From positions 1 to 64,000 of the forward strand of contig SIAK01000005.1 of assembly GCA_009691805.1 (NCBI GenBank): a stretch of DNA of 64,000 nucleotides, read 5' to 3'. This document shows, piece after piece, positions 10,921-25,172 of this stretch. A model generated the notes under the pieces. It saw only the letters and a program-made list of their open reading frames with translations. It had not been told where the DNA came from and made no database searches. The DNA comes from Phycisphaerales bacterium (GTDB lineage: Bacteria > Planctomycetota > Phycisphaerae > Phycisphaerales > SM1A02). Positions within the stretch are counted from its first letter, which is position 1. Each line of letters begins with the position of its first letter. Both the position numbers and the translations under genes were made by a program.

Positions 10921-11724
10921 CGTGTTCCATCGACCATCGCGCCACGATGCCATCTTGGGATCGACGCGAAACAGCGCACCCAAATCAGACACATCGATTT
11001 CAAGGAGCGGCGCGCCGTTCGTGACCGCAAGATCGATGGAAACCGCGCGCGGCGAAGGTGTCAGCAGCGCCGCTTCAAGCAACAACATGCGGCGCAATGC
11101 GGCGTTGTCGAGCGTGGGACGAGCGCCGCCACGCAGCGCGCGGCATTCACGCACGAATCCTTCGCTGCCTCCAGGAATCATGCCGTCATAGTCTTCGAGC
11201 AACGACTCCGCGTCCGCCGCGCGCAACGTCGAGAGCGCGAGTGGACCCTTTCCCAATCGATAGAACGAGAGCGCGCGAGAAAGTGCGAGCGCCTTCGCCG
11301 CATCGACAGCACCAACCGGACGTTCATATCGCACGCCTCCAAGGAGCGCGGCTGCAGCCTGCATGCGTCGCGCTTCAAGCGGCGTCGTTGCGATGGAAGC
11401 GCGCGCGAGTGCGGCGCTTCTGCCCAATCGATCACGATCGAGTGCACCCGCGAGCCCGAACAATTCACGCGCGAGTTGGCGCTCGGCATCGGTCGTTGCC
11501 GCATCCACAACTTCCTCGCCAAGGAGAAAATAATCAAACGGTCGGGTGGGATCAAGCGTTGTGAGTCGCGCATCCCATCGCGCTGTTGGACGCGTTGCGG
11601 GAACCACCGGTGCTGCACTCGTTGCTTGCGCTCTGGCAATGTCGCACACAGCGCATAGAGCGCACAACGCGATCAAGAGTGTCCATGTCATGGATGTGGA
11701 TGTGGATGCGAATGATGCTCTCAT
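10912..11724 (-). CDS. Exported protein of unknown function, last gene of the ExbB/ExbD operon
   Basis: A 270-residue protein with an N-terminal signal peptide (SMTWTLLIALCALCAVCDIARAQA). The mature part is Ala/Leu/Arg-rich and helical and matches no family that I can name. A short conserved-looking stretch is PFDYFLLGEEVVDAA; the C-terminal end contains LLEIDVSDLGALFRVDP. The start overlaps the stop of the 1003-residue gene by 4 bases, so it belongs to the operon that begins at 21201. It probably acts outside the cytoplasmic membrane together with the upstream large proteins. Confidence 0.65.
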   Translation of the reverse strand: MRASFASTSTSMTWTLLIALCALCAVCDIARAQATSAAPVVPATRPTARWDARLTTLDPTRPFDYFLLGEEVVDAATTDAERQLARELFGLAGALDRDRLGRSAALARASIATTPLEARRMQAAAALLGGVRYERPVGAVDAAKALALSRALSFYRLGKGPLALSTLRAADAESLLEDYDGMIPGGSEGFVRECRALRGGARPTLDNAALRRMLLLEAALLTPSPRAVSIDLAVTNGAPLLEIDVSDLGALFRVDPKMASWRDGRWNTSL

Positions 11725-14700
11725 GCAGCGTCCTCTCGTGCTACGGCTTCCGCTTCAACATTCACCATCGCCACGCGTGCAAATCCGATCAGTGTCAGCG
11801 CGAGTTGCGCCGACGCGCTTTGTGCGGTGCTTCGCGCAAGAGCGGTCTGCGCGAGAATCTCGCGAATTGCAGGGATCGCAATCGGTCGGCGCGCGCCTTC
11901 AATTGCCGCTGCTTGCTCAAGCAGCGATGCCGCGTCGGCGACCGCGCGCTGCATCGCACCCTCGGCGAGTCCACGCCGTGCAATACGCAATCGTTCAAGC
12001 TCCCCTTGTGGTGCGGGGAATGGTTCGGCGAGGAACTGCTCCTCCGCCGCCACACGCAACGCGCCCGCAAGCGCGGCGATGGAGCCATCGAGCGTCGGCG
12101 CAATGTCCGATGCCGCAACGCTCGGCGCGTAGCGCAGCGTCAATGCTCCCGCGCTCGCGGCAACGCGCGCCGCGAGCCGATCCACTGCAGCTTCGCGACT
12201 CGATTCAAGCGAGAGAATGCGCTCGACCAACGCAACTCGCGCAGATGGAATCCAATCTCGACCTGTGAACTCTCGGTTCAAGAGTGCGGCGAGAAACCCA
12301 GCAGTTTCTTCGCGAGGCTTCGACTCTGAGAGCACGTCAAGCACCGCGAGCAACACAGTCTTACCACTCGCAAACTTCTCCGCGATCGCGCCCTGCGCAC
12401 CGCGTCGTGTATCAGTGGCATTCCCCTGAAACGCTTCGCGCGCGAGCACTTCAGCATCACGAGGACCAAGGTCGCCCGCTGCAGGCAGTGCGCGCAACGC
12501 CGCGATAAGTTTCTCTCGGTCGTCGACATTGGCACCAGCGCGCGTGAACTCCGCCGCCCAATCACCATCATTGAATCCCGATGGCCGCAGTCCACTGTCT
12601 CCTGAGAACGGCGCTTCAAGTGCTTTCCGTTCCAGCTTCAAACAGTCCGTCGCAACTTCGAGTGCACGGTCCCCGTCTGATGATTTGCCCGCTTCGAAGA
12701 GCCGCACTGCAAGCACGAGTTGAAGCGCGCCATCCGCAATCGCGAGCGCTTCCACATCATCCTGCGGGCGCGCGGCGTGCGTGCCAAGCTCTCCAATCGT
12801 TGATCGCATCAACTCGACTGTGCTGCCCGCAAACGCGAGGCTCTCACCCTGCTCGCCTGGCTCTGCCTTCGGCCACGCTGCGAGAATGCGTTGCAGGGAC
12901 GCATCACGACGCGATGCATTCGCGTCCACAGGAAGCACCATCTCCGGCGAGAACCACGCGATGCGATGGTTGCGATCGAGCATGCTCGTGAACACCCAGA
13001 GTCGCGTAGGCGCGATCGTCGAAGTTGCAAACCACGAACCAAATGCAGTGCGCGCTTGATCGCCCGACGCGCCGCGATTCGACCAATCAATGTCGGTGAT
13101 CAGTCGACCCAACACATCGCTCGCAGCATTCTGCAAATCGATGGGCGCTACGTTCTGCAGAATTGCCTCGATCGCCGCAAGTCGCGCGGACTCACGCAAC
13201 TTCGCGGTGCTTCCCGCAGCATCCACCGCGTCAAGCCAACGCGACCAATCATCGAGCGTCGTAGATCCGGTGCCTGTCGTGGTCGCATCCGCAAGCATGG
13301 AAACGGCGCGCGTCAAACTCGCAATCGCGGCTGCGCCAAATCGATCCACACCGCTACCTGCAGGGATCGCCACACCATCGCGACGCAGTGATTCACGCGC
13401 TGCACTCGCGACCTCTCCACCGACTTCAGGATCGCGCACAATTTCCGCCGTCAAACCCGCGGCACATGCTTCTAACCAAACGCGTTTCCATTGCGGCGGT
13501 GGCTCTGTTGGAAGGTTCGAGTCTGGAAGTCCGTGCAACGCGAGCAAGAATGTGTGCGCGCTCTCTTCGCCGCGCACCGCGCGACCGACTTGCACCACCG
13601 CACTGATGAACTCCGCGCGAAATGCGCCTGAGACCGCCCAAGATTCTCCCGCGCCTCGCATCCATGTCGCAAGCGATGCAGCGTGCGCGCCCGAGAGTCG
13701 ACCGCGATTGGTCTTCAATGCGCGCGCGAGCCCATCCAATTCCGTCAGATACTCAGGCCACTGATTCGCCAACTGCACCGTCGCCGGAGGCGTTGCACTC
13801 GATGCAAATCCTGGCGCACGGCCGTACTTCGCAGGCGCCGCGAGCGCTTCAATGTTGTTGTCTGGAGGCGCAAACTTCTGCGCAAGCAGTGCAGCGGCGC
13901 GTTCCCGCTGCGTCGATGCATCGTCGACGATGACGACGGGTGGTGGAGGCGCGCCGTCATTCGTGTTCGCGTCGTTGCCCTTCTCGACACCGCTGACGAT
14001 CATCCACACAATCGCGAGCGTGCATGCAACGGAACCAATGCCGAAGAACGCCGCCAGTCGCACTGAAGACCAAGGAGATCGACCGCGCATCTCATCACCG
14101 ATGGAGTCGACGATCTTGTCCACAACGACTTCCGCGCGATTCGATTTCTTCGGTTGTCGCGCGTGCAGTTGATCGATCGAAACGACGACGCTCGCAAAAT
14201 CACTGCGCACTGCAGCGGCGCCACCCTCGCGCATGAACTTCGCAAGTCCCGCAACAACGCGCTGCAATCCTTCATTGCTCACGCCATGTTCAGCACTCAC
14301 AGCAGCAAGTTGCATTGCTGTCTTTGGATTCCATCCGCCGCCCGCAACCAAGATCGTCAGCACAACGCGATCAAACTCCGTCAAGTTCTCTTCATTGACA
14401 ACAGACTTCGGTCGCGTGGGCGGAACACCACCGCTTGTGCGTGACGCGCTCTCGATGCGAAGCTTCGCCATCGGATGCATCGGCGTCGTGTTTGGTTCGC
14501 GCGTCAACGAAATCTCTAACTCGATTTCGCGTGCGAAGTTTTCGAGTTGCTGCACTGCGCGTCCGGCATCCGGCGAATCCGCGAGCGGGTGGTTGCGTAC
14601 TTGCTCGACGCGACGCGCGAGCGCTGCTTCCACTCCAGCGATGGTGATCGGACCCTGTGCAAGACCGAGCATGCCACGCGCGCTTCGATCGCTGCCCACT

Positions 14701-14732
14701 GCAATGAATCGTTCAATCGGAGTGAGGCTCAT
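11721..14732 (-). CDS. Large single-pass membrane protein of unknown function
   Basis: 1003 residues, no recognised family. The first ~225 residues are predicted cytoplasmic. They contain a small helical module (FIAVGSDRSARGMLGLAQGP, ~9-28), a proline/charged linker, and a second helical module around 117-167 (LTEFDRVVLTILVAGGGWNP). One transmembrane helix follows at ~227-247 (LAAFFGIGSVACTLAIVWMI). The remaining ~750 residues would lie outside the membrane and are alpha-helical, Ala/Arg/Leu-rich and repeat-like. The topology (small cytoplasmic part, one helix, huge periplasmic part) suits a structural scaffold working with the ExbB/ExbD motor. It overlaps its neighbours by 4 bases on both sides. 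Confidence 0.68.
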   Translation of the reverse strand: MSLTPIERFIAVGSDRSARGMLGLAQGPITIAGVEAALARRVEQVRNHPLADSPDAGRAVQQLENFAREIELEISLTREPNTTPMHPMAKLRIESASRTSGGVPPTRPKSVVNEENLTEFDRVVLTILVAGGGWNPKTAMQLAAVSAEHGVSNEGLQRVVAGLAKFMREGGAAAVRSDFASVVVSIDQLHARQPKKSNRAEVVVDKIVDSIGDEMRGRSPWSSVRLAAFFGIGSVACTLAIVWMIVSGVEKGNDANTNDGAPPPPVVIVDDASTQRERAAALLAQKFAPPDNNIEALAAPAKYGRAPGFASSATPPATVQLANQWPEYLTELDGLARALKTNRGRLSGAHAASLATWMRGAGESWAVSGAFRAEFISAVVQVGRAVRGEESAHTFLLALHGLPDSNLPTEPPPQWKRVWLEACAAGLTAEIVRDPEVGGEVASAARESLRRDGVAIPAGSGVDRFGAAAIASLTRAVSMLADATTTGTGSTTLDDWSRWLDAVDAAGSTAKLRESARLAAIEAILQNVAPIDLQNAASDVLGRLITDIDWSNRGASGDQARTAFGSWFATSTIAPTRLWVFTSMLDRNHRIAWFSPEMVLPVDANASRRDASLQRILAAWPKAEPGEQGESLAFAGSTVELMRSTIGELGTHAARPQDDVEALAIADGALQLVLAVRLFEAGKSSDGDRALEVATDCLKLERKALEAPFSGDSGLRPSGFNDGDWAAEFTRAGANVDDREKLIAALRALPAAGDLGPRDAEVLAREAFQGNATDTRRGAQGAIAEKFASGKTVLLAVLDVLSESKPREETAGFLAALLNREFTGRDWIPSARVALVERILSLESSREAAVDRLAARVAASAGALTLRYAPSVAASDIAPTLDGSIAALAGALRVAAEEQFLAEPFPAPQGELERLRIARRGLAEGAMQRAVADAASLLEQAAAIEGARRPIAIPAIREILAQTALARSTAQSASAQLALTLIGFARVAMVNVEAEAVAREDAA

Positions 14733-17401
14733 GTCGAACCCTCCGTTGTTGCAGTGCTCTTGGCCCGTGCTTCGACTTCGAGCGCCTCAAACTTCGCCTT
14801 CCATTCGCCTGGCCCAAGATCGGGGTGCAGTTTGCGATGCTGCTCAAGCACGGCGAGACTGCGATCGGCATCGAGCAACAAGAGCACGCGCGCAAGATCG
14901 TACTTCGCGCGAAACCAAGGCGCGGTTCGTGAAGGAATACCCGCCACGAGTCCCTTGAGTTGCTCAATCGCAATCTCGTACTGACCCGAACTCTCCGCGA
15001 AGAATGCCGCCGATTGCAGCACACCTGCTTCGCGATTGCCCGCAGCGATCAACGCTTGCGCAACGACGAGTCCTGCTTTCGCATCTTCAGGTGAAGCACT
15101 CGAAGTCACCATCTCTTTGCGTGCATCGAGCAGCGTGCGAAGGAAACCAATCGATGCAGGCGATTTCGCCGCAGCATCCAAACCACCCGCGCGAGCGATG
15201 AGTGCATCTGCGGCACGCACACTTGTGCCAACGAATGCGCTTCGTCGCGGATCATCCTTCGCCGTCGCGCGTCGCGCGATCTCCGCGCCGCGCAATGCAA
15301 GACGCAGCGAAGCATCCGCCCAAATCGCGGTGGCGTTGGGCAACTCGAACTGCGCAAGCCCACTCTCGACAAGCTCCCACTGATTCTGCATGATCGCCAA
15401 CTGCAATCGTCGGTACGCCAATTCTTCGCGAGCTTCGGAGAGTTCAAACGCACCAGCGAGCACCGCCGCATCAATCGCGCCGAGCAGATGCGCCGCAAGT
15501 GCGGTGTCCGTCACTTCATGCGCGAGCGCGACTTCAAGCGCCTGCCGCGCGATGCCAACACTTCCGCCAGGGAGCGCTTCCGCGCCCGCCTTCTCAGGCA
15601 AGGTTGGAAGCACGCCGATGTATCGTCGGCCGAGCGCCGTGCGATCCGCAGCGATAGTCGCAGCGCGGAAAGATCTATAGAGCCCGCCGAGAGCAGCACG
15701 ACGCGAAGCCTCGAAGGTAGGCTCGGTGCTCGGCACTGCAAGTAGTTTCTCGATGTCCGCGATGTCAGGTAATGGATCCGCTTGTACGCGACGCACGAAG
15801 AGTTCAATGACTCGCATCGAAGCGGGAAAGCGGCGCAAGAACGCGTCGCTCAGACTCGCGATTTGCGCATCCAGCGCTGTGCGTTCTGCGCCCTGCATCG
15901 TGCGTGAGAGTTCGTCTAGACAAGAAATCGCCGCCCAGGCAGCGTTTTCACCACGCTCGCCTGTCAGCGTCGTCGCGACTTCGTCGAATGCAGCAGCCGC
16001 CGCGCGATACTCGCGCGCGCCACGCAGGCTGTACGCGCGCATGAGTTTGCAACCATCGCGAGCCTCGGGATATTTTTCCGCGTCCTCCGCAGCGAGTGCT
16101 GCATCAAGCACCTTGAGCGCTTCGCGATTCACACGCATCGCGTTGTCCGCCATTGCAGAATCAACCGTCGCACCTCGATCGCGTGCCGCGGCAAGCGCGT
16201 CATCCGTCGCGCGCGCCGCGTCGTACTGCGTCAGCGACGCAACGTAGCGTGCGACGAATCCATCGCCTTCGAGTCCGCGACCATTGAACTGCTCGACGAT
16301 GTCCCGCACTTGCGCGAGCTCACGGCGCGTCGCAAGTTGCGCGAGCGCTTCCTTCGCGAGTGTGAGTGCTGCGGCATCATCATTCGCTGCACGAAGTCCG
16401 CCTGCTGCGGCCACGCGATACCAAGCGGTTTCGGCGCCGTCTTGCGTCGCGAGTACCTTCAAGATCTTGCGCGCTGCAGCCCAATCCTTCGCACGCACTG
16501 CTGTCGCCAAACGCCAACCATCGAGTCTGGTCCGCAGCCCTTCATAGGCTCCTGCGACTTCAAGCAGGTTCAACCATCGTGTCGCTTCGCCATAACCTTG
16601 CGTCTCAGCCTTTGCGAGCCCAAGCCCAAGAATCGTTGATGCAAACGCTTCTTCGCCGCGCAAATCGAGCGACACTTCACCTGGTTCGAGGCGGCCATTC
16701 CGAGCGCCCGCGATTTCCATAAAAATCTGCGCCGCGGTTTCAGCGTCGGAGATCGTGTCGCTCAACTGACCTTTGTACAGATGCGCCCAACCGCGAAGAA
16801 ATCGACACTGTGTCGCGATCATCTCCGCACGCTGAATATCCGCGCGCGCGAGATCCTGCGTCAATCCAACCAGCGAATCCATGCGCCGATCAAGATCCCG
16901 CGCGCTCTTGAGCGATTGCGTCTGCAATCGTTCAAGCACCGGCAGCGCAAGCGCAAGTTCCGCCAACGCGATCGATGTCGCGTCGGCCTTGCCTCGCACC
17001 GCTGCGCGCATGTCCTCCGCAATCTCGGCGGCAGTTCGATAGTGCGCGCGTGCGATCGCGAGATCGAGCCACCGCGCCGCGTCGCCATCATTCTCGCCAA
17101 GTGCTGCGCCCGCGCGCACGACTAAAGTTTCTCGTTCAGCACCGCGCGCGGAAAGGTCAAGCAGCCGCGCGTAGGTGGAACTCAACCGCTCGCGCACGCG
17201 CTTGAGTTCTTCACCTGTCGTGTCCTTGGTGAGCAACTCGAGCCGCGTCGCAAGCAGACCATCGAGGTTGTGTGCTTCAAGCCAATCGGCGAGTTCGTCG
17301 CCGCGCGCGGGTGCTGCGAGCATGACGAACGCGACGCTCCAGAGAGCGAAGTGTCGGCAAAGTGTTGATCGGGCGCGAAGTCGCATCGGGTTCTCAATCA
17401 A
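14729..17401 (-). CDS. Large secreted helical-repeat (TPR-like) protein
   Basis: 890 residues beginning with a signal peptide (MRLRARSTLCRHFALWSVAF, then LAAPARGDE, cleavage near residue 34). The mature chain is a long series of paired amphipathic helices with TPR-like spacing, for example REYRAAAAAFDEVATTLTGE and ARVLLLLDADRSLAVLEQHR at the C-terminus. TPR proteins usually hold multi-protein complexes together. No catalytic motif is visible. The gene shares 4-base overlaps with exbD upstream and with the 1003-residue gene downstream, so its product is very likely made in fixed proportion to the proton-channel subunits. A start at the second methionine (MRLRARS, 17386) is possible and would leave the signal peptide intact. 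Confidence 0.7.
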   Translation of the reverse strand: MIENPMRLRARSTLCRHFALWSVAFVMLAAPARGDELADWLEAHNLDGLLATRLELLTKDTTGEELKRVRERLSSTYARLLDLSARGAERETLVVRAGAALGENDGDAARWLDLAIARAHYRTAAEIAEDMRAAVRGKADATSIALAELALALPVLERLQTQSLKSARDLDRRMDSLVGLTQDLARADIQRAEMIATQCRFLRGWAHLYKGQLSDTISDAETAAQIFMEIAGARNGRLEPGEVSLDLRGEEAFASTILGLGLAKAETQGYGEATRWLNLLEVAGAYEGLRTRLDGWRLATAVRAKDWAAARKILKVLATQDGAETAWYRVAAAGGLRAANDDAAALTLAKEALAQLATRRELAQVRDIVEQFNGRGLEGDGFVARYVASLTQYDAARATDDALAAARDRGATVDSAMADNAMRVNREALKVLDAALAAEDAEKYPEARDGCKLMRAYSLRGAREYRAAAAAFDEVATTLTGERGENAAWAAISCLDELSRTMQGAERTALDAQIASLSDAFLRRFPASMRVIELFVRRVQADPLPDIADIEKLLAVPSTEPTFEASRRAALGGLYRSFRAATIAADRTALGRRYIGVLPTLPEKAGAEALPGGSVGIARQALEVALAHEVTDTALAAHLLGAIDAAVLAGAFELSEAREELAYRRLQLAIMQNQWELVESGLAQFELPNATAIWADASLRLALRGAEIARRATAKDDPRRSAFVGTSVRAADALIARAGGLDAAAKSPASIGFLRTLLDARKEMVTSSASPEDAKAGLVVAQALIAAGNREAGVLQSAAFFAESSGQYEIAIEQLKGLVAGIPSRTAPWFRAKYDLARVLLLLDADRSLAVLEQHRKLHPDLGPGEWKAKFEALEVEARAKSTATTEGST

Positions 17402-17811
17402 TGAAACGGAACGTACGTCACACTCGTGTATCCAGCATCATGCGCAGCCTGCACCGCTGTTGCTGCAAATCCAAAGTCGACACCATCACGGACTCGTACA
17501 AAGACGCTGTCTTCGGGGTTGAGTGCGCGCAACGCTTCCGTCAGCGACGCTTTATCCATGTAGGTTGCTCCGCCGATGCGATACAGCCGCACGCCGCCTT
17601 CTTCGAGCACGTCGACATTCTGTGGTTCAAGATCCGTGCGTCGCTCACTGCCTCGCTGCGTGGCGAGATTGGGATCGAGTTGCGCCTCGCGCGACGATGC
17701 GGATTGCGTGAAGATGAAGTAGCTCAGCAGCAAAAATGTCGCGTCAATCATCGCCGCGAGGTTGATCTCGGGCTTGCGATCCCGTTCGCTGCTCACACGA
17801 CGAAATCTCAT
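17398..17811 (-). CDS. exbD: ExbD/TolR-family proton-channel subunit (second copy)
   Basis: 137 residues: a short cytoplasmic N-terminus, one transmembrane helix (~18-36, INLAAMIDATFLLLSYFIFT) and a periplasmic domain of ~95 residues. The proton-carrying aspartate of the ExbD/TolR/MotB family is at position 23 in the sequence MIDATFLL. The periplasmic part ends with AVQAAHDAGYTSVTYVPFH, matching the family's C-terminal strand. It differs clearly from the upstream ExbD, so the pair could form a heterodimer in the ExbB pore, as in systems that use one TolQ and two different TolR proteins. Start and stop overlap the neighbours by 4 bases. Confidence 0.88.
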   Translation of the reverse strand: MRFRRVSSERDRKPEINLAAMIDATFLLLSYFIFTQSASSREAQLDPNLATQRGSERRTDLEPQNVDVLEEGGVRLYRIGGATYMDKASLTEALRALNPEDSVFVRVRDGVDFGFAATAVQAAHDAGYTSVTYVPFH

Positions 17812-18236
17812 TTCGCACCGCCTTCGGTCGCAACGCGCACCGCAATGATGCCCGCTTGCGAGAGCCGCTCAAGCACATCGTTGATGAGATCTGTCCGCGC
17901 CTCGCGATCGGCGCGCACGAGTGGGCGCAATTTCGTCACGCCTCCTTCGGTCTTCGCAGCTGCCTCCGCGACAAGTTCACCGATGCGGTCGAGCGACACC
18001 ACATGCTCATTCACCACGATGCTGCCATCCGCAAGCACATTGAGCACCACACCCGCTTGTTCATTGGTGCGGACCTCTTGCCCTGGCTCCTTCGGCAATG
18101 CCATTTCGGTGCGTGCTTGTTGCGCGGCTTGGCCCGTGACGAGAAAGAAAATCAGCAACTGAAAGACGATATCGATCAGTGGCGTCATGTCGACCACTGC
18201 ACTGCGGAAAGAATTGTTGCGAGTAGCGAATCGCAT
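17808..18236 (-). CDS. exbD: ExbD/TolR-family proton-channel subunit (first copy)
   Basis: 142 residues with the canonical architecture: basic N-terminus, transmembrane helix with the essential aspartate (Asp22 in DMTPLIDIVFQLLIFFLVT), and a periplasmic domain with VVLNVLADGSIVVNEHVV and a terminal VLERLSQAGIIAVRVATE segment. ExbD dimers sit inside the ExbB pentamer and couple proton entry to movement of a periplasmic partner. The gene starts 23 bases after exbB and overlaps the second exbD by 4 bases. Confidence 0.92.
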   Translation of the reverse strand: MRFATRNNSFRSAVVDMTPLIDIVFQLLIFFLVTGQAAQQARTEMALPKEPGQEVRTNEQAGVVLNVLADGSIVVNEHVVSLDRIGELVAEAAAKTEGGVTKLRPLVRADREARTDLINDVLERLSQAGIIAVRVATEGGAK

Positions 18237-18259: not shown

Positions 18260-18973
18260 TCAAACGCGCGTGACCTTGTTCTTGCTGGAACTCTCGATGA
18301 GCGCAACAACTTCTTCCATCTCCACCGCCGCATCACCCGCCAGTCGATCCACTCGATTGCGGAAGAAGCTGTAGAGGGTGACGCACGGAATTGCGACGAC
18401 CAAGCCTTGGAACGTCGTGATGAGCGCGATCGCGATGTTGTAGGCGAGTGCTTCGTAGTACGTTGAATCATGCGCCGCGCTCGACGCGACGGTTTCAAAC
18501 GCGCCAATCATGCCTTGCACGGTGCCGAGCAATCCCAGCAGCGGACCAACCGACCCAATCACGCCGATCACATCCATCGTGCGGTAGAGCCGCGCGGTCT
18601 GCTCGATGCCACTCTCTTCAAGTGCGCTCTTCATTTCGAACGCGCCAAACGGAGAAGCGATGAATCGCTTGAGCCCTGGTGCGAGCGTGCGCAAGAAATA
18701 GCAATCGTTCGCAGGAAGTTGCGCGTACTCCAATGCGTGTTCAAGCTGCCCGCGCGCAAGCAACTCCTTCACTGCGTTGATGCGATCTCGTGGCATCTGC
18801 ACTGACGCGCGAATCTGCACGAAATGCACGATGACGAAGGCGAGTGCCACAATCGAGAGCAGCACGATGATGTAGCCAATCACGCCACCGCCCGTGATGA
18901 ACTTGAGCGCGGACGTGCCAGCGCCCTGAGCATTGGTGGTACTTGCGGCTGCTTGAAGAAGAAAGTGCGTCAT
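18260..18973 (-). CDS. exbB: MotA/TolQ/ExbB-family proton channel
   Basis: 237 residues with three predicted transmembrane helices (~30-52, ~133-155, ~175-197) and a cytoplasmic loop between the first two. The diagnostic family motif is GSVGPLLGLLGTVQGMIGAF in the second helix, followed by IAIALITTFQGLVVAIP in the third. ExbB-type pentamers form the stator of proton-driven machines (TonB, Tol-Pal, flagellar and gliding motors). The gene overlaps the preceding secreted-protein gene by 4 bases and is followed by two exbD genes. The N-terminal ~25 residues are Ala/Thr-rich and could be a short periplasmic extension. Confidence 0.93.
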   Translation of the reverse strand: MTHFLLQAAASTTNAQGAGTSALKFITGGGVIGYIIVLLSIVALAFVIVHFVQIRASVQMPRDRINAVKELLARGQLEHALEYAQLPANDCYFLRTLAPGLKRFIASPFGAFEMKSALEESGIEQTARLYRTMDVIGVIGSVGPLLGLLGTVQGMIGAFETVASSAAHDSTYYEALAYNIAIALITTFQGLVVAIPCVTLYSFFRNRVDRLAGDAAVEMEEVVALIESSSKNKVTRV

Positions 18974-20112
18974 GGAGTTTGCTTCCTATCCGATTCCGTT
19001 GCAGTCGCTGCGGCTGCTGATTTCTGTTTGGAGTCTGTGAAAAACGGGTCGCCATCGTAACTCGCGCCGATACGCTCAATCGTGGACGCGCTCTTCGCAT
19101 CGCCGCGTTCGCGACACGCTGCGGCTGCTTCGTGGAGTGCCAATCGACCGAGCGCTGTATTGCCCTGCGTTGCGGCCACGCTGAGGAGTTCAAGCGTTCC
19201 CTCTTCACGCGCGGACGATTCCGCGCGTTGCACCAAGGCACGACCGATTGTCATCGATCGCCACGCAAGCAATTCGCGCGGCGCGTCGCCGCCGCCTGAA
19301 GTTCGCGCAAGCGCGAGAAATCCATCGGCGAGTTTCTTGCGCTCGCGATCATCCGTTGCAAGCGCGAGCTCTTCAAGTGAGGCAAGGAGTTGCTCACCGA
19401 GCGGCGCATCGCTTGCAAGTGCGACATGCTGAGGCGCGTTGCGCAAGAGGCGTGCGAATCGCTGCGCCATCAATGCTGTTTTTGTTGCCTCGCGCGCCGC
19501 ACTGTCCAGTGCTTCGGCTGCGCGAGTGGCAGTCTCATCCGCCGCAAAGGGAGTGATTCCGCTCGAGAAAAGCGTGGACGGCTCGAGCACCCCGGGCAAC
19601 GAGGCAAAGGGCGCGTCCGCCGATGTTGCGTGCGTTGCAGCGTTCTCCGCCACGATGATCCACGGCTCAAGCGCGCCCACCATGTCGCCGCGCGCGAGTG
19701 CGCAGCGCAACAAACCTTCTGCCGTGATCGACGCGAGATCACCTTTGTGAACACGCATCGAACCCCACACTTCGCGCAGCAACGGCTCGGCAAGTTCGTA
19801 GTCGCCGCGCAGGAGTCGCATGCGCCCGCGCCAGAGCGTTTCGCCCCCCTTCAATTGCGCGTCGATGTTGGCAGGCGCAGTTGTGCCGCGCACCGCACGC
19901 ACTTGATCCCATCGCACAAACTGATCGACTCCATCAACGCGCTTCACGCGCAACCCAGATTCTTCGACGATCGCTGACGATCCTTCGAGCAGCGCCGCGC
20001 CATCTCGCAAGTCGAGTTGCACATCGGCACTCGCGAGTTGCAGGCAAGCACACGCCGCACTCAGCGCAAGCAGTGCGCGTGAAACTCGAAGTGATGCGGA
20101 GGAGTCATGCAT
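18970..20112 (-). CDS. Secreted protein of unknown function upstream of exbB
   Basis: 380 residues with a signal peptide (LRVSRALLALSAACACLQLASA, cleavage near residue 29). The first ~50 mature residues form a small beta-rich segment (VQLDLRDGAALLEGSSAIVE, then VDQFVRWDQVRAVRG). The rest is helical and repeat-like: FLALARTSGGGDAPRELLAW, TQGNTALGRLALHEAAAACR. No named family is recognised. The start lies 45 bases after the stop of the VWA/TonB-like gene and the stop overlaps exbB by 4 bases, so it is part of the same operon and likely a periplasmic component of the same machine. Confidence 0.66.
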   Translation of the reverse strand: MHDSSASLRVSRALLALSAACACLQLASADVQLDLRDGAALLEGSSAIVEESGLRVKRVDGVDQFVRWDQVRAVRGTTAPANIDAQLKGGETLWRGRMRLLRGDYELAEPLLREVWGSMRVHKGDLASITAEGLLRCALARGDMVGALEPWIIVAENAATHATSADAPFASLPGVLEPSTLFSSGITPFAADETATRAAEALDSAAREATKTALMAQRFARLLRNAPQHVALASDAPLGEQLLASLEELALATDDRERKKLADGFLALARTSGGGDAPRELLAWRSMTIGRALVQRAESSAREEGTLELLSVAATQGNTALGRLALHEAAAACRERGDAKSASTIERIGASYDGDPFFTDSKQKSAAAATATESDRKQTP

Positions 20113-20157: not shown

Positions 20158-21201
20158 TCAAGGTCCTGCTGGAATCGTGATGCGAACACCGCCCGTCACA
20201 GGGACATATCGAAAAACGCCCTCGTTTTCTCGTGCAATCTCCTCAAGTCCCGCGCGACCGGATTCCGAACCGAAACAGATTGTGTTGATGATCGACGCGC
20301 GCCGTTGCTTGTGATTGAGGCGCGTGATCTCGCTCGGACCATCTCCAGGAATCTCGCCGTCGGTGAGGAAAAAAATGACATCGGGAGATGCTGGCAATTC
20401 GAACACACGTTCGAATGAGGTCATCGGATACGTGCCGCCGCCAGGCGCTTGCTCCTCGAGCCACTTCTTCATGCGCAAGATGTTGCCCCTCGTCGCGCGA
20501 ATCCAACTCTCTTCCCAATCAGGAATGCGGCGATCGTCGGAGAAGAGCACCACGTACAGACTCGCGAAATCAGGAAGCGCCGCGATCGAGCGCTTGAGTT
20601 CGGTCATCGCAACGACAAACCGATCATCCATCTGCATGGATCCCGAAACATCGACGATGAATGCGAATCGCGTGCCGCGACCACCGACACCGAAGAAACT
20701 TGTGCCGCCACCTCCGCGACCACTTCCGATACCAATCCCCTGACCAGGTCCACTAGAACCAACGATGCCGCCAGGTCCTGGTGCTTCAATCATGCCGAAA
20801 CTATTTTGCGTGGGATCACCGCTCGCGAGATCCGCACTGAGCGCCGGAATCTCATCAGGATCAGGCATGATCTCACCCGCTGCAAGTGGAGACGGATCAG
20901 GCAGCTCGACATCTTCATTCGGCGTCACAGGTTCCTGCGCGCTCGCGAGATTGATCTCGACAGGCGCGTCCATGCGACGCTCCGCTTCCGCAGGTTGTCG
21001 ATACCACCAAAGCGAAAGCATCATGGAGATATGCACAACAAGTGAAACGGCAAACGCGAAAAGTAAAATGTGAACCCAATACTCTCGCGAGTAGCGGCGG
21101 CGCTCGAGATCCGCGGGTCGCGCGTACACAGGCGCACCACCTTGGGTCTTCACCGAAGTGGGCGCGCTGAGATCGCGAGGTTGATTTGCGGGAACTTGCA
21201 T
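20158..21201 (-). CDS. TonB-like membrane anchor fused to a von Willebrand factor A domain
   Basis: 347 residues from ATG 21201 (MQVPANQPRDL); the frame extends upstream but has no better start. Residues 1-40 are cytoplasmic. One transmembrane helix spans ~41-66 and carries Ser53-x3-His57 (VSLVVHIS), the same SxxxH spacing that TonB uses to contact ExbB/ExbD. A Pro/acidic-rich stretch (~88-130, PVTPNEDVELPDPSP) and a Gly-rich linker (~139-177) lead to a VWA domain (~178-347). Its metal site is intact: FIVDVSGSM (Asp184, Ser186, Ser188), a Thr in GGGTYPMTS, and FFLTDGEIPGDG. There is no TonB C-terminal domain. It is the first gene of an eight-gene operon containing exbB and two exbD genes. VWA domains bind protein ligands through a metal ion; ligand and role here are unknown. 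Confidence 0.82.
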   Translation of the reverse strand: MQVPANQPRDLSAPTSVKTQGGAPVYARPADLERRRYSREYWVHILLFAFAVSLVVHISMMLSLWWYRQPAEAERRMDAPVEINLASAQEPVTPNEDVELPDPSPLAAGEIMPDPDEIPALSADLASGDPTQNSFGMIEAPGPGGIVGSSGPGQGIGIGSGRGGGGTSFFGVGGRGTRFAFIVDVSGSMQMDDRFVVAMTELKRSIAALPDFASLYVVLFSDDRRIPDWEESWIRATRGNILRMKKWLEEQAPGGGTYPMTSFERVFELPASPDVIFFLTDGEIPGDGPSEITRLNHKQRRASIINTICFGSESGRAGLEEIARENEGVFRYVPVTGGVRITIPAGP

Positions 21202-21362
21202 GAAATCCCTGCTGAAAAACGCATCACCTACCCAACGTCGGGTGGTTCTGTAAGTTTCTACGAGAACGTGGATGAAGTGCGACCCGAAGCCCTGCAAAAA
21301 ATCAAGAATTCGCAGAGAATGCGATCCGCCCACGCCGCGACCAACGCCTCCGAGAATTCACC
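21202..21362. promoter_or_regulatory. Divergent promoter region, VWA/ExbB operon and pyrH
   Basis: The 161-base gap must contain the promoters of both the minus-strand VWA/ExbB/ExbD operon and the plus-strand pyrH gene. An imperfect inverted repeat (ACCTACCC at 21226-21233 facing GGGTGGT at 21240-21246) lies 25 bases before the VWA gene start and could be an operator. No convincing -35/-10 pair was found by eye on either strand. Confidence 0.35.
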
Positions 21363-22723: not shown

Positions 22724-22838
22724 GCAGTCGTCCTTGTCGCACGACTGACCTCTATCGTCGAAGACGCTCTTTCTCCACGCAGGCGTGCTCTCCTACAGAC
22801 GCCTCGTGACGATGGATTCTCTATGTTTCATGACCTTA

Positions 22839-22859
22839 TTGAGGTCGTGCACCGACCTC
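22839..22859 (+). promoter_or_regulatory. Hairpin or operator before the beta-helix protein gene
   Basis: A perfect 8-bp inverted repeat (TGAGGTCG/CGACCTCA, 5-base loop) ends 12 bases before the chosen ATG at 22872. It would sit in the 5' leader or overlap the promoter. No T-run follows, so it is more likely regulatory than a frr terminator. Confidence 0.4.
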
Positions 22860-22871
22860 AGCTCCTTCCCT

Positions 22872-25172
22872 ATGCAACCTTCCGCGCACCCACGGTTCCT
22901 CTCCTTCGTCCCTGCGAGCATTGTGTTGGCTGCGATGCTCACCACAGCCAACGCGCAGACTCCGACAATCGTTGTTGACGCAGACAACACGGTCATCACG
23001 CAGAGCGTGGCTGTTGTGCCGATTATTGGCGTGCTCATGGATACCGACTTGAATGGTGTGGTGCACGTCAAGGGTGATCCTGAAGGCAGGCCGATCACGG
23101 TTGACTTTGGTGGCGGACTTCTGCTCGGGAGCGCACTCTCCTCGGAACGATTGACCGGCATCGGCATTGTCGTCACCGGTAAGAATGTCACCCTGCGCAA
23201 CGGCAAAGTGAAGGGTTTTAAAGTCGGCATTCAGGGTGTCGGGTGCGACGGACTCGTCCTTGAAGACTTCGACACCAGCGACAATTACGCGCAGCTCTTG
23301 CAATCCAAGCCATGGAAGGAACAGGGCGCAGATTGGCTGTTTCCGCATCAAAACGATGCGGGCGAGTGGGCGCAACAGCACGGCGCTGGAGTGTCTGTTT
23401 CGAACGCGACGGGCATCACGATTCGCAACGTCACAAACCTTCGCACACAGAATGGCATTCTGCTTTCGCGCGTGAACAACTCCAAAGTCTACGACAACGA
23501 TTGTTCGTTCTTGTCAGGTTGGGGACTGGCGATGTGGCGCTCGAATCGCAACACAATCGCGCGCAACAGTTTCGACTTCTGCATTCGCGGTTACTCGAAC
23601 GGCATCTACGCGCGCGGACAAGATTCCGCTGGCATCTTGCTCTTCGAACAATGCAGCGACAACGTGCTTGCACTCAATAGCTGCACGCACTCGGGCGATG
23701 GTATCTTTGGATTTGCAGGGCGCGAAGCACTTGGCGAGAGCCCAAGCCCCGTTCCAGTCAGCGACACGAACGACCCTTACGAGTGGTATCGCGGTCGCGG
23801 CTGCAACAACAACCAAATCATTGCGAACGATCTCTCCTTCTCCTCCGCGCACGGCTTGGAGATGACGTTTAGTTTCGGCAATCAAGTGCTGCGCAATCGG
23901 TTCGAAGGCAACGGTTTCTGCGGGATTTGGGGCGGTTATTCGCGCAACACGCTCATCGCATTCAACACATTCGAAGGCAACGGCGGCGCAGGACACGGGC
24001 GCGAGCGTGGTGGCATTGCGATGGAACATGCGCAAGGCACGCAGATCGAAGACAACCAGTTTTCACTCGATGCGCAAGGCATCGCGTTCTGGATGGATGA
24101 GGACGCTGGACTTGCGAAGTTGCCTTGGGCTGCAGCGAATGGCACGGAGACGAAATCCAACCGAGTGCAATCCAACGTCTTCACGAAGGAAGATCAGGCA
24201 ATCGTGTTGATCGGCACGAGTGCGACGGTGCTCGATCACAACAAGTTTGTCGATTGCCCTGTTGAAGTCGTCGAAGAAAACGCTTCCGACACGAAACAAA
24301 GCGATGCGGGTCTCGCCTCCTGTGCGCCGACAAGTGCCGCAATCGACGCTCTGCTCGCAGCATTGCCTGGCTCACGCGCCGCAGTCGGACTTCGCGATGC
24401 GCTGCGCGGACGCGATCGCATCGTCATGCTCGATCGCGGTCCGTACATGTGGGATCGACCGATCATCGTGCGATTAAATCAGTCGCAGAACCGTGCGCAG
24501 TATGGGCTGCACGGATTTCCGAAGTTGGTTGGCGCAGACGTGCTTGGTCGAGGACCACTCTTTGTCGGAGTCGCGCGCGATGATCGCGGCGCAGAGATCG
24601 CGGCGGATCCCGCAGGCTTCGTGACCCCCTACATCCTGCAAGTTCGCGGCATTAACAAACTGAAGGTTCGACACAGCGACATCCTCGCTCCTGCGGAGTG
24701 GAAGACGCGACTCTTCGAATTGAAAAACGCCACCGGCGCGGTCGATCCAAGCAAGGATAATGCGGCGTTTCAAGCACTTTCCGCAGAACAAGAGATCGAG
24801 TTCGTCTTCCGTGAACTCTCGTTCGAGTATGGCAACGGCGCACCGCAAAACGCGATTGACGATCCTGACGTGCGCAAACTCACCCTGCCCGCCGATGGGT
24901 TCGGCATGATTGCGGAGACGACCTTGCACTTCATTCCCGGCAAGTACCGCATCCACCTCGAAACCCGCGATGCCGCTCGTCTCACGTTGGATGGACGGAT
25001 CGTGATCGATCAGTTCAGCCGCACGCAAGACAATGGCATCGTCGACGATGCGTTTGCATTTGAGATCACGGAAGAACGAGATGTTCCCATCAAGGTTGAA
25101 CACTTTGATACTGTTGGCGAAGCGCACCTGCGCATCTACTTCGAAGCGATTGACCCGATCATCAAGGGCTGA
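22872..25172 (+). CDS. Secreted right-handed beta-helix (NosD-like) protein with PA14-like C-terminus
   Basis: 766 residues from ATG 22872, which gives a clean signal peptide (PRFLSFVPASIVLAAMLTTA ending in ANAQ); in-frame upstream ATGs lack one. Residues ~90-480 show the short repeated N/G/D turns of parallel beta-helix proteins, for example NATGITIRNVTNLRTQNGIL, NNSKVYDNDCSFLSG and GNQVLRNRFEGNGFCGIWGG. This is the carbohydrate-binding/NosD type of periplasmic fold. The last ~100 residues (TLHFIPGKYRIHLETRDAAR, then LTLDGRIVIDQ, then VEHFDTVGEAHLRIYFE) fit a PA14-like carbohydrate-binding beta barrel. Polysaccharide lyase or binding activity is possible, but no catalytic residues can be assigned. 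The gene stands alone, 25 bases before nrdR. Confidence 0.78.
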   Translation: MQPSAHPRFLSFVPASIVLAAMLTTANAQTPTIVVDADNTVITQSVAVVPIIGVLMDTDLNGVVHVKGDPEGRPITVDFGGGLLLGSALSSERLTGIGIVVTGKNVTLRNGKVKGFKVGIQGVGCDGLVLEDFDTSDNYAQLLQSKPWKEQGADWLFPHQNDAGEWAQQHGAGVSVSNATGITIRNVTNLRTQNGILLSRVNNSKVYDNDCSFLSGWGLAMWRSNRNTIARNSFDFCIRGYSNGIYARGQDSAGILLFEQCSDNVLALNSCTHSGDGIFGFAGREALGESPSPVPVSDTNDPYEWYRGRGCNNNQIIANDLSFSSAHGLEMTFSFGNQVLRNRFEGNGFCGIWGGYSRNTLIAFNTFEGNGGAGHGRERGGIAMEHAQGTQIEDNQFSLDAQGIAFWMDEDAGLAKLPWAAANGTETKSNRVQSNVFTKEDQAIVLIGTSATVLDHNKFVDCPVEVVEENASDTKQSDAGLASCAPTSAAIDALLAALPGSRAAVGLRDALRGRDRIVMLDRGPYMWDRPIIVRLNQSQNRAQYGLHGFPKLVGADVLGRGPLFVGVARDDRGAEIAADPAGFVTPYILQVRGINKLKVRHSDILAPAEWKTRLFELKNATGAVDPSKDNAAFQALSAEQEIEFVFRELSFEYGNGAPQNAIDDPDVRKLTLPADGFGMIAETTLHFIPGKYRIHLETRDAARLTLDGRIVIDQFSRTQDNGIVDDAFAFEITEERDVPIKVEHFDTVGEAHLRIYFEAIDPIIKG

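Follow-up and report, generated by a model that had tools for sequence, protein, structure and literature searches.

What does a membrane protein do that begins like TonB and ends in a VWA domain? The question is raised by one gene in the window, by which we mean the whole 64,000-nucleotide stretch of DNA analysed here. The window belongs to a planctomycete assembly of 2.6 Mb that is 94.6% complete; its closest named relatives carry the labels Planctomycetia, Planctomycetota and Phycisphaera sp., while wider matches are mostly Phycisphaerales or Phycisphaerae. A first-pass annotation, made from the letters of the DNA, read the gene product as an energised anchor that moves, exposes or pulls a metal-dependent protein-binding domain. 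This reading is supported by the analysis reported here, in which energisation, metal binding and the ligand are what we infer. The reading is not new, since it was published in 2025 for the vWA force transducers, a family already described computationally by Williams-Jones et al. (PMC12204202; statements about that paper refer to the part of it available to us). The window protein belongs to that family and is called the transducer below.

Layout of the transducer and its gene cluster

The transducer is encoded by a 347-residue open reading frame on the minus strand (20158..21201), with an ATG at 21201 and a stop codon that ends at 20158. An alternative in-frame GTG at 21333 would give 391 residues, and the true start codon was left unfixed because similarity to homologues starts only at about residue 31-33. 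One N-terminal membrane helix with Ser53-x3-His57 had been proposed, and AlphaFold2, supplied with 77 homologues, predicted a single helix at residues 29-67, the expected place, after the cytoplasmic start; the hydrophobic stretch WVHILLFAFAVSLVVHISMMLSLWW houses both residues. Residues 51-58 of this membrane-helix segment, including Ser53-Leu-Val-Val-His57, form a putative motor-docking motif whose coordinates (21028..21051, minus strand) follow from the residue numbers. TonB and TolA share a longer motif, S-x3-H-x6-L-x3-S, which the transducer matches at Ser53, His57 and Leu64; in place of the final Ser it has Arg68. The linker that follows (residues 68-162; 20716..21000, minus strand) is Pro/acidic, as first noted, and then Gly-rich, and AlphaFold2 gave residues 68-163 mostly as disordered or with pLDDT below 60. 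Among family members the spacing from the His to the MIDAS ranges from 65 to 233 residues, with a median of 125.

Residues 165-334 were predicted to fold as a VWA domain, with pLDDT mostly above 90. Comparison with solved VWA domains gave VIA-align Z scores of 16-20, Foldseek E values went down to 2e-10, and a sequence profile matched as well; the single transducer sequence falls under the Pfam VWA cut-off, whereas VWA_3 is matched by 71 of the 77 members of the family. The metal site, for which the first-pass annotation had named Asp184, Ser186 and Ser188, is complete, Thr257 and Asp281 being added here. The MIDAS-bearing part of the domain, with DVSGS (184-188), T257 and TDG (280-282), lies at 20356..20652 on the minus strand.

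Downstream of the transducer, on the same strand, lie genes for a 380-residue protein, an ExbB, two ExbDs, an 890-residue TPR protein and a 1003-residue protein; upstream and divergent are pyrH and frr. The gene directly after frr (22785-25172, plus strand) encodes 795 residues, among which a NosD-like beta-helix and, narrowly under the cut-off, a PA14 domain were seen. For the 380-residue protein (18970..20112), structure prediction (mean pLDDT 90.6) gave a signal-peptide-like helix, a small five-strand beta domain (residues 31-75) and a TPR-like alpha solenoid, and its top Foldseek matches were TPR domains, weakly matched. The ExbB/TolQ-type motor subunit (18260..18973) matches Pfam MotA_ExbB at E=7e-25. 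The two ExbD/TolR-type subunits match Pfam ExbD, the first (17808..18236) at E=6e-20 and the second (17398..17811) at E=4e-10, and each carries the membrane Asp, in MTPLIDIVF and LAAMIDATF, respectively. ExbB and the first ExbD score highest against TolQ and TolR models. The large TPR protein (14729..17401), probably periplasmic and with its start codon not fixed, has no Pfam match on its own; its orthologues do match TPR families. The last conserved gene of the cluster, that of the 1003-residue protein (11721..14732), matched no known domain; its sequence was read as having a single probable membrane segment within the chain, at about residue 230.

The order VWA, TPR-like protein, ExbB, ExbD, ExbD, TPR protein is conserved. 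At 81 loci of the class, drawn from many of its families, an ExbB is next to the transducer in 69 cases and is almost always followed by two ExbDs. The 380-residue protein adjoins the transducer at 39 of these loci, the large TPR protein is present at 55 and the 1003-residue protein at 36. The membrane Asp is found in both ExbDs at 66 of 68 loci.

Conservation of the docking residues and natural variants

The expectation that Ser53 and His57 would be conserved in orthologues was borne out. Of the 81 aligned class sequences, 80 retain Ser53 and 78 retain His57, and within residues 1-150 these two are the sole positions with at least 60% conservation. The MIDAS residues are kept to a comparable degree (77-81 of 81). 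The SxxxH pattern goes beyond chance, since it is present in 78 of the 81 homologous membrane helices versus 10 of 405 membrane segments that were taken from genes nearby as controls. Another 79 loci, from named genomes, showed the same pattern as the class loci. A transducer match was found in 257 of 298 class genomes, some of these matches being to the VWA domain only; the twelve class genomes counted as "no match" for the co-occurrence table should not be taken as true negatives, since at least one (G149) yielded a copy in a profile search. In a phylum-wide profile search, 378 of 392 genomes had a match, although many of these matches may be to the VWA domain alone; the wider contig search used a profile of eight sequences.

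On the motor side, a profile alignment of ExbB with the solved structure puts Ser40 at the position of Ser34 in E. coli ExbB, and this position is Ser in 138 of 140 ExbBs. By cryo-EM, ExbB Ser34/Trp38 and TolQ Ser28/Trp32 touch TonB Ser16/His20 and TolA Ser18/His22 (PMC12215075). Published AF3 models, as given in the available part of PMC12204202, have vWA force transducers docking on the motor via the conserved His. The position of E. coli ExbB Trp38 is not conserved, being aliphatic in these ExbBs and Leu44 in the window ExbB.

The same genome encodes a second SxxxH-VWA protein (contig C54, L127:4714-8025), with an SLAAH helix, the layout of the window transducer, and its own ExbB and two ExbDs, after which another gene begins; the MIDAS Thr and Asp are replaced. 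Relatives of this paralogue gave a match in 60 of 61 genomes of the order. In its clade (22 rows, support 100/99), Thr257 is changed to Ser and Asp281 is replaced, and the Ser and His are kept wherever the N-terminus is present. Because this clade lost the MIDAS Asp and kept Ser/His, the sequences suggest that, across the layout, docking on the motor is more tightly constrained than the metal site. Two further sets of VWA and ExbB genes were seen in this genome. A cluster on contig C19 (L125:415-16523), which resembles GTPase/GAP1 conflict systems, encodes a large Gly-rich VWA protein that lacks SxxxH, an ExbB that matches ZorA weakly and two MotB-like proteins with one helix each, together with DO-GTPase2 and GAP1-N2 proteins and a trypsin-like protease. 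On contig C69 (L126:296-6079) the Gly-rich VWA protein occurs a second time (814 residues), with an ExbB and a MotB-like protein next to it. For the transducer cluster, assignment to a defence system was rejected, the transducer and its ExbB having no PADLOC match.

In one genus, Ser-x3-Asn replaces Ser-x3-His in all three genomes (L051, L052, L236). Asn at His20 is reportedly a substitution that keeps E. coli TonB functional. The ExbB Ser40 position in this genus is Gly in one genome and Ser in another, and in the third genome ExbB lies past the contig end. Covariation between ExbB Ser and transducer Asn was considered, the only two non-Ser ExbBs of the 140 standing beside Asn-type transducers. 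It was reduced to a single event, because the ExbB of one case (L219) is distant, unrelated and about 6 kb off, and another ExbB of the Asn genus keeps the Ser. The one change of Ser40 to Gly beside an Asn-type transducer is only suggestive.

The transducer is not always beside its motor genes. Twelve of the 81 class loci are without an adjacent ExbB; five of these end at a contig edge within 0.5 kb and seven have room. At four of the seven (L056, L070, L072, L089), exactly ExbB-ExbD-ExbD is missing, with a gap of less than 220 bp, and the operons retain the VWA, TPR-like, TPR and 1003-residue protein genes; the transducers keep SxxxH. Outside the class, 19 loci were read, with SxxxH in 18 and SxxxN in one, and 10 of the 19 were without ExbB in the stretch read, one of these being a short contig. 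Nine such copies with SxxxH and VWA (L214-L218, L220, L222, L224 and L226) have no ExbB within several kb. The prediction that orthologues would be linked to exbB and exbD genes thus held for most of the class, and failed for the seven loci with room and for the unlinked copies outside the class. In E. coli, too, tonB lies apart from exbBD, so unlinked copies do not refute motor coupling. Each of the ten outside-class genomes checked for ExbB contains 6-9 homologues of it.

A proposed mechanism and its rivals

The sequence evidence for a motor with a TonB-like rod ending in a VWA domain is strong, and we think it probable that the cluster specifies a trans-envelope machine powered by protons and belonging with the vWA force transducers, in which a motor-coupled transducer tugs on a VWA domain. 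ExbB and the two different ExbDs would form the inner-membrane motor, and the transducer helix would dock on the flank of ExbB via Ser53 and His57. The flexible linker of ~100 residues could span the periplasm, and the VWA tip would use its MIDAS metal site to grip a protein ligand. With proton flow, the motor may then pull, release or relocate this ligand, by analogy with the pulling of TonB on receptor plugs and of TolA on TolB-Pal. The ligand would most likely be one of the cluster's two TPR proteins, or an outer-membrane protein presented by them.

Several observations sit uneasily with this machine, namely the four class operons that keep SxxxH without ExbB and ExbD, the lack of linkage in about half of the outside-class copies, and Leu44 at the Trp38 contact position. 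In addition, AlphaFold2 gave no "motor box" strand after the window transducer's helix, and matching hydrophobic alternation (e.g. PVEINL) occurs in 50 of 78 family members. The motor-free operons and the roughly nine unlinked copies could mean that Ser and His are kept for some other cause, such as helix dimerisation or contact with a metal or lipid, with nearness to ExbB reflecting functional grouping only. This we consider very improbable, given a spacing identical to that of TonB and TolA, the strong linkage within the class to ExbB and two ExbDs, the near-invariant ExbB Ser40 at the structurally matching place, and the ExbB homologues of the outside-class genomes checked, which would be usable in trans. 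Alternatively, the helix might dock on the motor while the VWA domain serves as a passive scaffold or plug, regulating the motor or gathering TPR proteins, with no force passing across the envelope. VWA domains commonly serve as scaffolds, and TPR genes are conserved neighbours of the transducer. The paralogue clade, having lost the MIDAS Asp and kept Ser/His, also favours a scaffold; it indicates that proteins of this layout do not in general need a metal-dependent grip. However, the long, disordered and fast-evolving linker looks like a reaching arm, and in the window's own type the MIDAS is conserved as strongly as the docking residues, so that we judge a passive scaffold unlikely.

If the cluster is a pulling machine, what it serves may be approached from the other envelope systems of these genomes. 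The first-pass annotation had the VWA domain standing in for the TonB C-terminal domain and the protein doing something other than opening outer-membrane receptors. Domain searches agree on both counts: the 94.6% complete assembly gave no TonB_C or TonB_2 match and no match to the TonB-receptor Plug (PF07715). TonB_C was above the cut-off in 22 of 80 genomes, and 39 of 68 class genomes having a transducer match have neither TonB_C nor Plug. TolB_N was unmatched in the window's own genome and had one marginal match among the 80 genomes, all 80 of which have an OmpA-type domain. On contig C22 of the own genome (L299:6220-7071), a stand-alone Pal-like OmpA-domain lipoprotein is encoded near murE, murF and mraY, with no tol cluster or motor nearby. 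Since this lipoprotein is present, the outer membrane is likely to be tied to peptidoglycan. With TonB_C, TonB_2, Plug and TolB_N unmatched and the Pal-like gene away from the motor, the transducer cluster does not qualify as a conventional Ton system, nor can a full Tol-Pal system be recognised.

A narrower form of the pulling-machine reading would make the cluster an outer-membrane-integrity machine that replaces TolA-TolB-Pal in these planctomycetes. The scarcity of TolB_N and TonB_C, the OmpA-type domains with the Pal-like lipoprotein, and TPR neighbours reminiscent of CpoB are in its favour. On the other hand, the cluster contains no Pal-type gene, the missing TolB_N match may reflect low sensitivity at this distance, and the genome has two separate vWA systems, at least one of which may serve another purpose; we regard this narrower form as rather doubtful. 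A literature search for essentiality data on planctomycetes gave nothing relevant. Slightly less doubtful, and offered tentatively, is the broader idea that in many class members vWA transducers are the main, and sometimes the sole, energised link from the inner membrane to the outer envelope, replacing TonB and Tol. Two lineages, with MIDAS kept or lost, would then use the same helix to drive metal-dependent and metal-independent heads.

Comparison with known systems

Like TonB-ExbB-ExbD, the window system has a single helix with Ser-x3-His-x6-Leu, a Pro/acidic periplasmic linker and an ExbB and ExbD motor; it differs in having VWA rather than TonB_C, two ExbDs, Leu at the ExbB Trp38 position, and a genome without a TonB_C or receptor-plug match. 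It resembles TolQ-TolR-TolA/TolB/Pal/CpoB in that TolQ and TolR are the best models for ExbB and the first ExbD and that the operon's TPR protein resembles CpoB. Unlike TolQ-TolR-TolA, it lacks a TolA-type C-terminal domain, the genome has no TolB_N match, and the Pal-like gene is elsewhere. A second published family, TPH-vWA with TolQ only, also couples a VWA domain to a TolQ-type motor; as described in the available part of PMC12204202, it has neither Ser/His nor TolR/ExbD genes, and the motor Asp sits in the helix of the VWA protein itself. In contrast, the window transducer has Ser/His and a helix without Asp, and two ExbD genes adjoin it downstream.

The closest counterparts are the vWA force transducers, with which, on the available part of PMC12204202, the window shares an SHLS-type helix, a disordered linker (their domain II, ~100 residues), a C-terminal VWA domain, a tolQ-like gene, two different tolR-like genes, a TPR gene and a place in the PVC group. 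The window transducer differs from those described there in lacking the last Ser of SHLS, and its cluster differs in the extra TPR-like protein, the conserved 1003-residue protein, the adjoining pyrH-frr and the second paralogous system. In that part of the paper we did not find class-wide statistics, the paralogue clade without the full metal site, the Asn genus or the motor-free operons. The last three provide natural test cases within a bacterial group that is mostly without recognisable TonB and Tol. In sum, with many more sequences than appear in the available part of PMC12204202, the results support placing the vWA force transducers next to TonB and TolA, as a third type of force transducer that is driven by protons.
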